A DNA stretch of 48,036 bases. Source: Bacillota bacterium (GTDB lineage: Bacteria; Bacillota; Negativicutes; Sporomusales; CTSoil-080). Both the position numbers and the translations under genes were made by a program. Under the pieces are notes generated by a model. The model was given only the letters and a program-made list of their open reading frames with translations, searched no databases and was not told the origin of the DNA. The stretch spans positions 1 to 48,036 of the forward strand of contig JAGGAD010000012.1 of the NCBI GenBank assembly GCA_017889625.1. Direction: 5' to 3'. Below, one piece after another: positions 27,707 to 43,015 of the stretch. Position 1 is the stretch's first letter. Every line of letters begins with the position of its first letter.

Positions 27707-29023
27707 GTGAAATTTAAATTGGATGTCCCGGTGTCTATATGGTTAGAGCTTATTGTAATTATTGCGCTGATATTTGCTAATGGGATATTTGCGATGACTG
27801 AAATGGCTATTGTCTCATCGCGGAAGGTCAGACTTGAACAGCGGGCTGACGAAGGCGATAAAGGAGCTAAAGCGGCCTTAGAACTTGCAGAAGAGCCGAC
27901 GCCGCTTTTATCCACGATTCAAATTGGTATTACTTTGATTGGCATTATCACCGGTACTTTTGGTGGAGCAACATTATCAAAACCGATAGCAGAACAGATT
28001 AAAGTGATACCTTTTGTTGGCCCGCATGCTGAGGCAATTAGTTTGTTTGTCGTGATCTTAAGTATTACGTATTTTTCGCTTATTGTTGGTGAATTAGTGC
28101 CCAAAAGATTGGCGTTGAATAATCCTGAACGGGTAGCTTCGGTGTTAGCTAGGCCAATGCGGTTTTTTTCAAAAATTGCGGCGCCGATTGTTCGGTTTTT
28201 AAGTGCTTCAACAGACATTCTGTTGGGCTTACTCGGGATAAAACCATCGGAGGAACCGCCGGTAACTGAAGAAGAAATTAAGATATTAATCGGGCAAGGG
28301 ACTGAAGCAGGAACGTTTGAAAAAGCCGAACAAGAAATGATAGATCAGGTCTTCCGGTTAGGAGATTTGCGAGCATATGCCATAATGACGCCGCGAACCC
28401 AGTTGGTGTGGCTTGATAGTGAGGAACCGTTGGAGGTTAATTTGAATATTATTGCCGATAGTCATCATTCTAGGTTTCCGGTGGCTAAGGGCAATCTGGA
28501 TTGTTTTGAAGGAATTATTTATAGTAAGGACATAATTTCCAAAACAATGGCGGGTAAAGCGTATTCACTAAGCGATTGTGTTCAAACGCCATTGTTTATT
28601 CCTAAGACGATGAAAGTTCTGGAGATACTGGCATTGTTCCAGAAAAAGGGGACCCATGACGCGGTTGTCCTTGATGAGTTTGGCGGGGTAGTAGGGCTTG
28701 CTACTATTTATGACATTATGGAAGAGATTGTTGGTGATATACCGGAAGTAGACGAACCAAATGAGCCACAAATAGTTCAGCGTGATAACGGTTCCTGGTT
28801 GGTTGATGGCCTTTTATCGATAGATGATTTTAAGGACTTTTTTGATATGGATGAATTGCCGGGGGAAGAGGGCGAACATTATCAGACTGTTGGCGGACTA
28901 GTTACCTCGTATTTGGGTTATATTCCGGTAACGTCAGAAAGTTTTGAGACGAATGGTCTCCATATTGAAGTTGTTGACATGGATCGCTTTCGGGTAGACA
29001 AAGTGCTGGTTACACGCATGTGA
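27707..29023 (+). CDS. HlyC/CorC (CNNM-type) membrane protein with CBS pair
   Basis: A 438-residue protein of the UPF0053/CNNM family: an N-terminal DUF21 membrane domain with about four helices (starting IWLELIVIIALIFANGIFAMTE), then a CBS-pair region (about 205-330, with AYAIMTPRTQLVWLD and VVLDEFGGVVGLATIYDIMEEI). A C-terminal CorC_HlyC domain follows (about 350-430, DNGSWLVDGLLSIDDF). Bacterial members are linked to magnesium or cobalt homeostasis. The GTG start at 27707 is uncertain because the GGGAG site is very close; a TTG four codons later is possible. A perfect hairpin covers the stop codon. Confidence 0.9.
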   Translation: MKFKLDVPVSIWLELIVIIALIFANGIFAMTEMAIVSSRKVRLEQRADEGDKGAKAALELAEEPTPLLSTIQIGITLIGIITGTFGGATLSKPIAEQIKVIPFVGPHAEAISLFVVILSITYFSLIVGELVPKRLALNNPERVASVLARPMRFFSKIAAPIVRFLSASTDILLGLLGIKPSEEPPVTEEEIKILIGQGTEAGTFEKAEQEMIDQVFRLGDLRAYAIMTPRTQLVWLDSEEPLEVNLNIIADSHHSRFPVAKGNLDCFEGIIYSKDIISKTMAGKAYSLSDCVQTPLFIPKTMKVLEILALFQKKGTHDAVVLDEFGGVVGLATIYDIMEEIVGDIPEVDEPNEPQIVQRDNGSWLVDGLLSIDDFKDFFDMDELPGEEGEHYQTVGGLVTSYLGYIPVTSESFETNGLHIEVVDMDRFRVDKVLVTRM

Positions 29024-29037
29024 CCAGCACTTTGTCT
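28996..29037 (+). terminator. 19-pair hairpin spanning the corC stop codon
   Basis: AGACAAAGTGCTGGT (28996-29010) pairs with 29023-29037, and four more pairs inside (one G-U) leave the loop CGCA. The TGA stop (29021-29023) lies in the 3' arm. No T-run follows. A second hairpin with T-rich flank lies at 29122. Confidence 0.6.
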
Positions 29038-29290: not shown

Positions 29291-30122
29291 TTAAATAATA
29301 GATGGCAGTAAAAAATCCTCTAGTGCCCTAAAATGGATGGAAAAAGTTGTCCCTTCAGTGGAAGAGTGTACTGTTATCTTTGCTTTATGCCTTTTGGCGA
29401 TGCTGTAGCAAATTGGTAATCCTAAGCCTAGTTGGTTCTTTTTTGTACTTAGGAAAGGAGTACCTATCTTGCTTAACACATTTTCGGGTATGCCTGGCCC
29501 AGTGTCATGAATAGCCAGGATTATTGTATCGTTATCCTGGTAGGTTTTAAATGTTAGGATTCAGCCAGCATCCATGGCTTCAAAACCATTTCGTGCTAGA
29601 TTGAGGATCAGTTGTCGTATTTCTTTATCGTCATAATGGATAAGCGGAATGTTCCCGATATTTGTTTGTATTTCACATTTTAAACGAAAAGCCTCAGTTT
29701 GTAATACTGGGAATAGAGAATATAGCGTTTCATTCAAATCCCAAGTTTTTGTTCAACTCGTTTATTTTTGGCAAGGTATAAAAACTCTATAATGACCTCA
29801 TTAGCTTGGTCCAGTTCCGCAATCATCATATCAAGTTGAGTGCGGTATTCAGCAAATAGTTCTTTACTTCGAAATATTTGCAAGTAGCCTCGTACCGTAG
29901 TTAATGGATTTCGTAGCTCATGTCCTATTTCGGCCGCCATTTTGCCTAAAAGCTCGAGCTGTTTATGTAGTGGCCATTCATCTTCATGCTTTCTGGGATT
30001 CTCGGTGATATTTTCATACATAGCTATAAAATGTCCCCTTTTTACTGACGATAGGCATATATTCTAAAACGTTGTTTTCATAATTAAAAATAGTTTTTTG
30101 GGAATTAGCTAACAAAATCGGC
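29291..30122 (-). pseudogene. PAS-histidine kinase of the sporulation-kinase type, decayed
   Basis: Reading leftward, a PAS remnant (VLEYMPIVSKKGTF, then FIAMYENITE after a frameshift near 30040) leads into a HisKA domain with the phospho-accepting His in EIGHELRNPLTTVRGYLQ. A second frameshift lies in the A-run near 29745. The next part carries the N-box (LILNLARNGFEAMDAG), then an in-frame TGA at 29561-29563. The last part has the G-boxes (HDTGPGIPENV and LGLGLPICYSIAKRH) and a normal end. Two frameshifts and one stop make a functional kinase unlikely. The domain wording resembles Bacillus-type sporulation sensor kinases. It lies directly behind a c-di-GMP riboswitch. Confidence 0.85.
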
Positions 30123-30156
30123 TAGCCCAGTATTTACAATACAAAATATTTGTCCA

Positions 30157-30202
30157 ATAAAAAACTGCCTGGTTGCTTACGATAAATAAGCAACCAGGCA
30201 GT
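30157..30202 (-). terminator. Riboswitch terminator
   Basis: On the leftward strand a perfect 16-pair stem (30187-30202 with 30164-30179) with a seven-base loop is followed by TTTTTTATT. Its 5' arm is the last part of the riboswitch aptamer, the classic arrangement in which folding of the aptamer and of the terminator exclude each other. Confidence 0.88.
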
Positions 30203-30275
30203 CGTAAACCTTTTTATTAGTCATTAGACCCACGGCTTTGCGTCCTCACCTTTCGATGAGTTTGCTAAATATTGA
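30188..30275 (-). promoter_or_regulatory. Cyclic di-GMP-I (GEMM) riboswitch aptamer
   Basis: On the leftward strand: GCAAACTCATCGAAAGG and TGAGGACGCAAAGCC form the conserved first helix, closed by a GAAA tetraloop (six pairs). GGGTCTAA is the tetraloop receptor side, and TTTACGACTGCCTGGTTGC is the conserved 3' part. These elements, in this order, are the GEMM-I consensus. The 3' part doubles as the terminator's 5' arm, so ligand binding should affect readthrough into the kinase pseudogene. Confidence 0.87.
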
Positions 30276-30281
30276 TATTTT

Positions 30282-30309
30282 AGTATAAACTTTGACATAA
30301 ACAGACAAA
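30282..30309 (-). promoter_or_regulatory. Promoter for the riboswitch transcript
   Basis: On the leftward strand, TTTGTC (30309-30304) and TATACT (30287-30282) are 16 bases apart. The expected start falls at about 30275, right at the aptamer's 5' edge. The remaining sequence up to 30502 shows nothing else. Confidence 0.55.
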
Positions 30310-30502
30310 TTCCTTCTATGCAAGTAATTGTTTGGATTTAGGATTTAATAAATGATAACATAACATCTATTTAGACTGGCAAAAAAATTAGTGACCATTT
30401 TGCCCCAAGTATTTATGCTTTTTATATTATACATAGAAATACCCTATAATGTAGACTTTTTTACGGTCTATCCTATAGGGTGCGTTTTAGAAATTAGTTT
30501 AT

Positions 30503-30527
30503 GGGGCGCTCAGTCTTGGTGCGCCCC
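30503..30527 (-). terminator. GC hairpin at the rqcH stop
   Basis: GGGGCGC (30503-30509) pairs with GCGCCCC (30521-30527) around an 11-base loop. It touches the stop codon of the leftward gene. No T-run follows on that strand, so termination is uncertain. Confidence 0.45.
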
Positions 30528-32293
30528 TATTTTCTCAGCAGATTTTGAACCGCTTTTTCATCGGGGGTAACGTAGAGCGTTTTCTGGTGATCATAGATTA
30601 CAAAGCCGGGTTTAGAGCCAGCGGGTTTATTGACGTGGCGGCGTTTGGTGTAATCTACAGGGACGTTGGCGGATTGGCGGGCCTTGCTGAAGTAGGCAGC
30701 CAGGCTTGCGGCTAGAGTAATGTTTTCGGGGGAAGGATCTAGAGTGCCGGTGCGTAAGATGACATGCGAGCCGGGAATGTCTTTGGTATGAAACCAAAGT
30801 TCATCAGGACGGGCGTGCTTAAAGGTTACCAAATCGTTTTGTCGGTTGTTTTTGCCGATTAAAATAGTTAAACCGTCTGGGGTTGTTGCTTCGAGAGGAG
30901 CACTAAGAGGGGCAGGCCGGTGTTTTCCTTTCGCTTTTTCTTTGACATAGGCGGCCTGAATAAGCTCTTGGCGAATTTCGCCGATTTCGGCTAAGGTTAC
31001 GGCTTGATGGAGGGTAACGAGAATACTATCGAGATAATCTAGTTCATTTCGGCATTCTTTGATTTGAACGGCTAGAGAATCTTGGGCCCGTTTGAGTTTA
31101 TTGTATTTTGTGTAGTAATGTTGAGCATTCTCCAGGGCTGAAAGTAGTGGATCAAGGGAAATGGTTACCTTGGTGGTGTCGGGGTCGGCTGCATATAGGT
31201 CGGGCAGAGTTGCGGTTGTTGAATGAGGTTCAATGGCGTAGATATTTGCCATGAGAATATCAGCTTGGCAACGTAAAATATCGGCTTCTTCGGCGGTAGT
31301 AAGTTCTTGGCTCAAAGTAGTAGCTTTTCGTTCCAAACGGGCTATTTCGCCGGTAACTAACTTAATAAGAAGGCTTTTTTCAGGAGCATCGTGGCGACCT
31401 TGGAAATAGGCGGCAAATTCAACGGCTTCACTCATTGTGTCAAAGGGGCGGGGTTCTTGGCCGGTAAGGTGTTCTAAGGAGAAGGCAGCCATGCCAAGGA
31501 TGCGGCTTTTGTCACTGGCGATAACGACCGTCGGTTGGTGTTCTCCCTGCCTTAACGGAGCGACAAGTTCAGAGATGGTTCCTTTAATGGTGGCAAGATC
31601 TGCTTGGTCTAACGTTCCAAGCGTGATATCGGCAGGCAGACCTGAACGCCATACTATTTCCCGGGCGGTTACGGGGCCAAGGCCGACAGTAACTTGGACT
31701 ATCGCTTTAGCGAGCGGGGTGCCTTCTGGCAGAATTTTCATCATGTCGGTTAGAAATTCAATTGGGGGTTCGGCTAAAATATTGACGCCGGACTGGGGTG
31801 GCGGGGGGAGAAAGTCTCGTCCCGGCAAGATTTGGCGGACACGACTCATATTTGCGCTGACCCGTCTGACAGAGTCGAGAATGATTCCGTCTTGGACCAG
31901 GATGATGTTGCTGTGTTTTCCCATAAGTTCAAACACTAACTCCTTAGTGATAATCATACCGCGTTCCCCACGAACGTCGATATAGATTGATACGGCCCGG
32001 TCTAGACCGTGTTGGCTTATCTTAGCAATACGGCCGTTTTCAAGGTGTTTCCTTAGTAACATAGTAAAAACCGGTGGACTGGGGGGATTCTCAGGGATTA
32101 TGGTAGCGAGATGCAGTCGCGGGTTTTCGGGATTGGCGGAAATAAGAAGCGGAATGGTTGCGGCGCCAATTTGGTGCAACCAGATGATAAGCGTATATTT
32201 GTCAGGTTGAAAGATTTTATCGACACGCCCGCCGGATAGCGTATTATCAAGTTCAGCTACTAATGGGGCGAGAGAAAGTCCGTCTAGATTCAT
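30527..32293 (-). CDS. rqcH: Rqc2 homologue RqcH (NFACT / FbpA family)
   Basis: RqcH binds stalled large ribosomal subunits and adds C-terminal alanine tails that mark the peptide for degradation. The 588-residue protein has the NFACT-N domain (MNLDGLSLAPLVAELDNTLSGGRVDKIFQ start; the Asp-Arg pair in LDRAVSIYIDVRGERG), then a helix-hairpin-helix-like and coiled-coil middle (about 270-440). A C-terminal NFACT-R domain follows (DLVTFKHARPDELWFHTKDIPGSHVILRTG). It is often annotated as fibronectin-binding protein. GGAGG precedes the ATG, and a sigma-A promoter at 32350-32321 drives it, divergent from the ATPase gene. Confidence 0.93.
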   Translation of the reverse strand: MNLDGLSLAPLVAELDNTLSGGRVDKIFQPDKYTLIIWLHQIGAATIPLLISANPENPRLHLATIIPENPPSPPVFTMLLRKHLENGRIAKISQHGLDRAVSIYIDVRGERGMIITKELVFELMGKHSNIILVQDGIILDSVRRVSANMSRVRQILPGRDFLPPPPQSGVNILAEPPIEFLTDMMKILPEGTPLAKAIVQVTVGLGPVTAREIVWRSGLPADITLGTLDQADLATIKGTISELVAPLRQGEHQPTVVIASDKSRILGMAAFSLEHLTGQEPRPFDTMSEAVEFAAYFQGRHDAPEKSLLIKLVTGEIARLERKATTLSQELTTAEEADILRCQADILMANIYAIEPHSTTATLPDLYAADPDTTKVTISLDPLLSALENAQHYYTKYNKLKRAQDSLAVQIKECRNELDYLDSILVTLHQAVTLAEIGEIRQELIQAAYVKEKAKGKHRPAPLSAPLEATTPDGLTILIGKNNRQNDLVTFKHARPDELWFHTKDIPGSHVILRTGTLDPSPENITLAASLAAYFSKARQSANVPVDYTKRRHVNKPAGSKPGFVIYDHQKTLYVTPDEKAVQNLLRK

Positions 32294-41557: not shown

Positions 41558-41583
41558 GTTAACGTTGAAATTACATAAAGTTA

Positions 41584-41724
41584 GCTCATCAAGAGTTGGT
41601 GGAGGGAATGGCCCGATGAAACCGCGGCAACCATCCGGCTTAGCTGGAAACGGTGCCAATTCCTGCGGGGGATGTCTCTCGCAAGATGGGAGCGGTTTAT
41701 GCCCTCCCTAGTGGGGTTTTTTTT
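41584..41724 (+). promoter_or_regulatory. SAM-I (S-box) riboswitch of metK
   Basis: The conserved S-box parts appear in order: CTCATCAAGAG, GGTGGAGGGAATGGCCCGAT, GAAACCGCGGCAACC, then GGTGCCAATTCCTGC and a closing GATGGGAG. A GGGAG/CTCCC hairpin (41688-41708) and an eight-T run at 41717-41724 form the terminator region. S-adenosylmethionine binding should lower metK transcription. The gap from here to 41828 holds only the leader and the AAAGGAGG ribosome site. Confidence 0.95.
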
Positions 41725-41827: not shown

Positions 41828-43015
41828 ATGGAAATGCGTAAATTATTTACGTCCGAATCGGTTACCGAAGGCCATCCGGATAAAATTGCTGATCAAATTT
41901 CGGACAGTGTACTTGACGCTATTATTGCCAAAGACCCAATGGCAAGGGTTGCTTGTGAAACTCTTGTTACTACCGGTCAAGTACATGTAGCTGGTGAAAT
42001 CAGCACAAAGTGCTATGTTGAAATTCCTAAGATCGTCCGCGAGACTATTAAAGAAATCGGATATACGCGCGCTAAGTTTGGTTTCGATGGCGAAACTTGC
42101 GGTGTTTTAATATCAATTGATGAACAGTCCCCGGATATTGCCATGGGGGTTGACAAGGCGCTGGAAGCGAAAAAAGGCGAGATGGACGAAATTGACGCCA
42201 TTGGCGCTGGCGACCAGGGCATGATGTTTGGCTATGCTACTAACGAAACACCAGAATATATGCCGTTGCCAATTTCGTTGGCCCATAAACTGGCAAAAAG
42301 GCTGTCTGACGTTCGGAAAGATGATACCCTTACATATCTTCGCCCTGATGGAAAAACTCAGGTAACGGTTGAATATGAGAATGATAAACCGATTCGGGTT
42401 GATGCCATTGTTATTTCAACCCAGCATGGCCCGGAAGTATCGCTGGCAGATATTGAAAGGGACATGCTTGAATATGTAATTAAACCTATTGTTCCGGCAG
42501 AACTTTTGGATGAAAAAACCAAATATTACATTAATCCTACTGGGCGGTTTGTAGTCGGCGGGCCGCAAGGTGATGCTGGATTGACCGGACGAAAAATTAT
42601 TGTTGATACCTATGGTGGTATGGCCCGGCATGGCGGTGGCGCTTTTTCGGGGAAAGATCCTACAAAAGTTGATCGTTCCGGAGCATATGCGGCTCGGTAT
42701 GTGGCGAAAAACATCGTAGCCGCTGGTCTTGCAGACAAATGCGAAATTCAGCTGGCCTATGCTATTGGTGTTGCTCAACCGGTTTCCGTGCTTGTAGAAA
42801 CCTTTGGAACTGCTAAAGTAGATGAGACGCTTATTGCTAAATTGGTAGTAGCCAATTTTGACCTGCGGCCGGCTGGTATCATAAAAATGCTTGATTTGAG
42901 AAAACCTATTTATCGTCAGACTGCAGCTTATGGTCACTTTGGTCGTACCGATGTTGACTTGCCGTGGGAACACACTGATAAAGCGGAAATTCTTCGTCGC
43001 GCGGCAAATATTTAA
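41828..43015 (+). CDS. metK: S-adenosylmethionine synthase
   Basis: Makes S-adenosylmethionine from methionine and ATP. The 395 residues start with [20 protein letters not shown], carry [12 protein letters not shown] (about 122) and the [16 protein letters not shown] loop (about 268). The ATG at 41828 is preceded by AAAGGAGG; a second in-frame ATG two codons later is possible. It lies behind a SAM-I riboswitch, so its product controls it. Confidence 0.97.

Follow-up and report, generated by a model that had tools for sequence, protein, structure and literature searches.

A complete GEMM-I riboswitch leader stands ahead of a dead kinase gene of the PAS-HisKA-HATPase type in the 48,036-nt stretch of DNA analysed here (the window), from a Bacillota bacterium with spore-forming relatives, and both parts of this statement, which the original prediction had made, are secured by the match of the aptamer to its family and by the alignment of the kinase remnant. 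From its layout, we infer that the leader is a functional-looking ON-type riboswitch. We consider it fairly probable that riboswitch and kinase remnant came together through a rearrangement or deletion behind rqcH, in which case the pair would not descend from a riboswitch-kinase unit present in an ancestor.

A cmscan search of the window with the RF01051 model gave a match at 30276-30186(-) that covers model positions 1-87 and scores 66.2 bits, well above the gathering score of 35 (E=7e-11), so that the aptamer announced as complete is indeed full length in the Infernal check; a custom model gave 80 bits. For comparison, GEMM-I leaders and their downstream DNA were taken from 28 genomes of the host's order, at least 149 in number (140 plus 9 from the host genome). 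A47/A48 and the ligand-pairing C are present in the window aptamer, and its junction and receptor nucleotides are conserved: it keeps 39 of the 40 columns that are at least 90% conserved among the 149 aptamers listed. By itself, the aptamer stretch does not stand out from shuffled sequences in folding (z-score -0.9) and therefore the evidence for the aptamer is the covariance model, not energy.

The folding signal is found once the terminator is included (z-score -7.0 against shuffles). The 5′ arm of this terminator, GACTGCCTGGTTGC, is the aptamer's last (3′) strand, as had been predicted, and a strand common to terminator and aptamer is the feature by which ON-type transcriptional riboswitches are recognised. 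An overlap of this type occurs in 40 of the 149 GEMM-I leaders listed for the host's order, and the 43 leaders listed with an anchored overlapping stem carry compensatory changes (stem position 7 being A-T/T-A/G-C and position 2 C-G/T-A). In the absence of ligand, the aptamer-completing strand would pair into the terminator and transcription would end near 30157; in its presence, the strand would stay in the aptamer and RNA polymerase would read on, the target of this read-through being an orphan PAS-HisKA-HATPase kinase copy that is decayed and 5′-truncated. The promoter placed before the aptamer is suggestive at most: the TTGTCT/TATACT pair is present, but its spacing is sub-optimal and the candidate is absent from the consensus promoter scan.

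Table 1. Features of the leader, the kinase remnant and the flanking genes (window positions)
Feature	Position	Strand	Basis or detail
Full-length aptamer of a GEMM-I riboswitch (c-di-GMP-I, RF01051) with A at specificity position 20	30186..30276	-	covariance model
Intrinsic terminator followed by T-run; ON-type expression platform	30155..30203	-	18 pairs at 30203-30163
Possible promoter: TTGTCT 30308-30303, 15-nt spacer, TATACT 30287-30282	30282..30308	-	read from the sequence
Kinase remnant, 5′ part: last ~20 PAS residues, then HisKA, H-box HELRNPL	29734..30065	-	DNA alignment, domain match
Kinase remnant, 3′ part: HATPase_c, other frame after 1-nt deletion near 29737; TGA 29563-29561	29291..29740	-	
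rqcH (NFACT family), upstream, same strand as leader and remnant	30527..32293	-	
CNNM/CorC-type transporter gene, convergent with remnant	27707..29023	+	

What might the leader sense? Model position 11 of the window aptamer is A, where most GEMM-I aptamers have G, and it corresponds to Vc2 position 20 when mapped from the numbering of PMC6274999 (J1/2 A9-A14, P2 from C15, J2/3 A41). In the Vibrio aptamer, a G20A change enables cGAMP binding (PMC6274999, PMC7288161). The window aptamer thus lacks the G at position 20 of the c-di-GMP-selective GEMM-Ia type and has the A of the cGAMP-selective GEMM-Ib type, and therefore the c-di-GMP label that it had been given is uncertain. Of the 149 leaders listed for the host's order, about one in eight has A20, as counted with a pattern that misread a few; its carriers include L004, L009, L110, L190 and L221, though the host genome shows no Hypr GGDEF. 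The search of this genome for a cGAMP enzyme covered GGDEF domains only and gave 11 GGDEF matches; of the 10 that were readable, nine have the base-contacting Asp, one has Asn and none has the Ser/Thr of Hypr enzymes, so that support for cGAMP from this side was discarded. The simplest guess for the ligand is c-di-GMP, whose binding is putative. Another GEMM-I leader of the host genome precedes a GGDEF protein (L342 / L007, G000:C60) that has Asn for the base-contacting Asp (GHLVGN) together with GGDEL and is perhaps altered or inactive.

Read through its frames, the remnant matches HisKA (E=4e-12) and HATPase_c (E=3e-18). Its closest intact relative within the genome is a 391-aa PAS-HisKA-HATPase kinase (L011, contig C61), with 73% DNA identity over 725 bases, and the DNA alignment of the two bears out the two frameshifts and the in-frame stop of the original prediction: a 2-nt insertion near 30035 shifts the frame, as does the 1-nt deletion, and an in-frame 3-nt insertion and the TGA complete the list (Table 1). 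The PAS part of the predicted PAS-HisKA-ATPase frame did not stand. Homology to the paralogue starts only at 30065, at residue ~142 of 391 or about 140 codons in, and therefore the remnant has lost the kinase start and almost the whole PAS domain; Pfam detects PAS in the paralogue and gives no PAS match in the remnant. A search for the missing N-terminus across the genome returned the intact paralogue alone, plus a weak 29% match. The G2 box is altered as well (NQLGLGLP against GTGLGLS in relatives). Only about 90 bases separate the terminator from the start of kinase homology; no small gene was found to survive there on reading three frames, and the stretch between leader and kinase yielded no vestige of a different gene that the riboswitch might once have served. 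The sporulation (Kin-type) reading of the gene stands on the type of kinase only and is not supported, and a phosphorelay role is putative.

Decay has also left its mark on the pattern of substitutions. Summed over two segments, lineage-specific changes at codon positions 1/2/3 number 31/22/31 in the remnant, against 10/7/30 in L011 and 14/8/39 in L018, another intact kinase of its clade, and the 53 versus 31 changes of the remnant are close to the 2:1 expected without constraint. Among 116 residues invariant in four intact kinases, 26 are changed in the remnant, compared with 6-15 for each intact kinase left out in turn. Because only about 3.4% of random changes create a stop, a single stop is compatible with near-neutral drift. 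Thus, the loss of the kinase, which had been taken as recent, is not obviously so, and relaxed selection before the breaks is inseparable from decay after them. A 95-aa frame that is open across HisKA in the 5′ part (30021-29734) was considered as a surviving mini-protein and rejected: its changes (5/12/11 at the three codon positions) indicate no constraint, with 12 of 28 at position 2 compared with 0-1 in intact lineages. These results also bear on the idea of an intact kinase whose breaks are errors of assembly or sequencing, to which the draft state of the genome (113 contigs) lends some substance. We regard it as extremely improbable, since sequencing errors cannot produce the loss of ~140 codons, a changed G2 box, changes at 26 of 116 invariant residues and a neutral codon pattern.

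The RNA, in contrast to the gene, is nearly unchanged. Had the 40 highly conserved positions of the aptamer drifted at the remnant's rate, with lineage-specific changes at about 14% of sites, some five of them should differ; one does, by an A to T shared with L004 of the same genome. This change is matched on the opposite arm of the terminator, at a position that is mostly A-T, T-A or G-C across the 43 leaders listed with an anchored overlapping stem, in which other positions covary; the terminator stem is perfect at 14 of 14 anchored positions. Two explanations offer themselves, that the leader is still selected or that it arrived here later, and the data are compatible with both. An RNA kept intact while its gene decayed, together with the lack of a predicted minus-strand terminator between the remnant and the CNNM gene, into which read-through might therefore run antisense, would suit a leader that works without a protein, as a terminated stand-alone RNA of about 130 nt or through ligand-driven antisense read-through. 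We find such a role doubtful, as arrival after the decay of the kinase would also explain the preservation and the 95-aa HisKA frame is unconstrained. The fuller version, in which the leader outlived its gene and acts alone, as a terminated sRNA or a CNNM antisense RNA, possibly answering cGAMP as well as c-di-GMP through A20, seems to us quite improbable; if true, it would represent a rare natural gene-free cyclic-dinucleotide sensor.

Was the kinase ever the evolved target of this riboswitch? The original prediction saw in the pair a second-messenger input inherited from an ancestor, and the relatives of the kinase do not bear this out. The remnant groups with L011, L018/L247 and L248 (support 93/85), a clade whose intact members are the host paralogue on C61 and kinases of G002 and UBA5324, and is 57-60% identical to L018 and L011. 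No GEMM-I leader was found within 3 kb of these clade members or, across GTDB genomes, of any of the 80 nearest kinases, and degenerate riboswitches before L011 or L018 were sought and dismissed (none at E up to 0.5-1). Among the leaders listed for the host's order, GEMM-I targets are mostly chemoreceptors, GGDEF proteins and other signalling proteins. An intact riboswitch-kinase pair does nevertheless occur once in the host's order, outside the remnant's own clade: in G008 an intact GEMM-I (L144, G008:C1:891588-891675, -) lies directly before an intact 616-aa PAS-HisKA-HATPase ORF that starts 24 nt past the aptamer, the sole close GEMM-I-to-kinase case among the 149 leaders listed. This kinase is 48% identical to the remnant and is placed elsewhere in the kinase tree, in a part that is weakly resolved. 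Its leader has a separate downstream terminator in an OFF-type layout, which suggests an OFF switch with control opposite to that of the window leader. Two further leaders deserve mention: L162 precedes a distant kinase (22% identity), and in the host's family an ON-type GEMM-I (L108, G002:C150:5957-6044, -) lies between a histidine kinase gene and a gene for a 124-aa lone receiver domain.

The gene order around the leader points to another origin of the pair. In genomes of the same genus and the same family (G001 and G002), rqcH is followed by pyrR-rluD, which is not the case in the window, so the DNA behind rqcH has been rearranged here. Joining by rearrangement is therefore favoured, because the remnant's clade is without GEMM-I, the L144 kinase lies elsewhere in the tree and this DNA is rearranged; a remnant that begins only about 140 codons into the kinase, and that is near-neutral beside a near-unchanged aptamer, also speaks for it. 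Before the joining, the riboswitch would probably have been the leader of some other gene, and the piece joined to it would have been the 3′ two-thirds of a kinase paralogue, whose start and PAS domain were already gone or were lost afterwards. Against joining stand the absence of any trace of another former target gene between leader and kinase, the L144 pair, by which such units can evidently form in the host's order, and an unsampled ancestor that could have had the pair, the host's family comprising three genomes, one of them 65% complete. The converse reading is that the leader controlled the kinase in an ancestor, as a true unit, of which an internal deletion then took the start and PAS before the frameshifts and the stop arose. 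The intact leader and the remnant are indeed immediately adjacent on the same strand, L144 and the kinase / GEMM-I / receiver-domain order at L108 offer related arrangements, and a c-di-GMP riboswitch controls the kinase operon cmrRST in Clostridioides difficile (PMC6837544). Even so, we hold a relic of this kind to be rather unlikely, given that the nearest intact kinases have no riboswitch, that L144 combines a different part of the tree with an OFF-type layout, and that gene order is rearranged at the site of leader and remnant.

Some other elements of the region were noted. An imperfect palindrome at 30489-30424(-), ACCCTATAGGATAGAC...GTCTACATTATAGGGT, has an 80% identical copy at G000:C6:5375-5439 and may be a small repeat, mobile or palindromic, close to the rearrangement point. 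No plasmid matches were found. A perfect 15-bp inverted repeat, AGACAAAGTGCTGGT...ACCAGCACTTTGTCT (28996-29037), spans the CNNM stop codon, with no T-run flanking it at either end. Elsewhere in the window, a SAM (S-box) riboswitch at 41583-41692(+) (81 bits) precedes the ORF 41828-43015. Behind five GEMM-I aptamers (L004, L116, L003, L203 and L221) only very small ORFs of about 35-75 aa follow, some resembling single membrane-spanning peptides, and these are possibly overlooked c-di-GMP-controlled small proteins.

As matters stand, the locus neatly illustrates how a riboswitch can be preserved next to a gene in decay, and shows that a gene may lie beside a riboswitch without having evolved as its target; the L144 pair in G008, for its part, offers a direct way to test whether a cyclic dinucleotide controls an orphan kinase. 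How does this locus compare with known systems? The window leader resembles RF01051 members in its full-length covariance-model match, A47/A48 and the ligand-pairing C, and differs from them in having A for G at position 20 and a dead downstream gene. The remnant belongs to the same PAS-HisKA-HATPase sequence family as the orphan kinases L011, L018 and L144 of the host's order, which, unlike it, are intact, L144 alone being behind a GEMM-I. The closest parallel in layout is the cGAMP-responsive pilM GEMM-I of Geobacter metallireducens, a measured ON switch in which aptamer and terminator are mutually exclusive and the ligand-pairing C is absorbed into the terminator (PMC9262584). In the window leader, too, the terminator includes the aptamer 3′ strand with the ligand-pairing C, and thus ligand should permit read-through; the specificity position likewise carries the A that marks cGAMP-type (GEMM-Ib) aptamers. 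The differences are that the window leader precedes a pseudogene, that the search of the host genome turned up no Hypr GGDEF enzyme with Ser/Thr, and that the leader's ligand is putative. That a c-di-GMP riboswitch can govern a system with a kinase has precedent in C. difficile cmrRST, where a histidine kinase and two response regulators lie downstream of the riboswitch Cdi-2-2, by its name probably of another c-di-GMP class than GEMM-I (PMC6837544). The cmrRST system shares with the window a cyclic-dinucleotide riboswitch ahead of a kinase-containing system and the ON direction, and differs in being an unrelated operon that is intact and phase-variable. The pieces of the window locus, a GEMM-I leader and a dead kinase, are thus real but ordinary.
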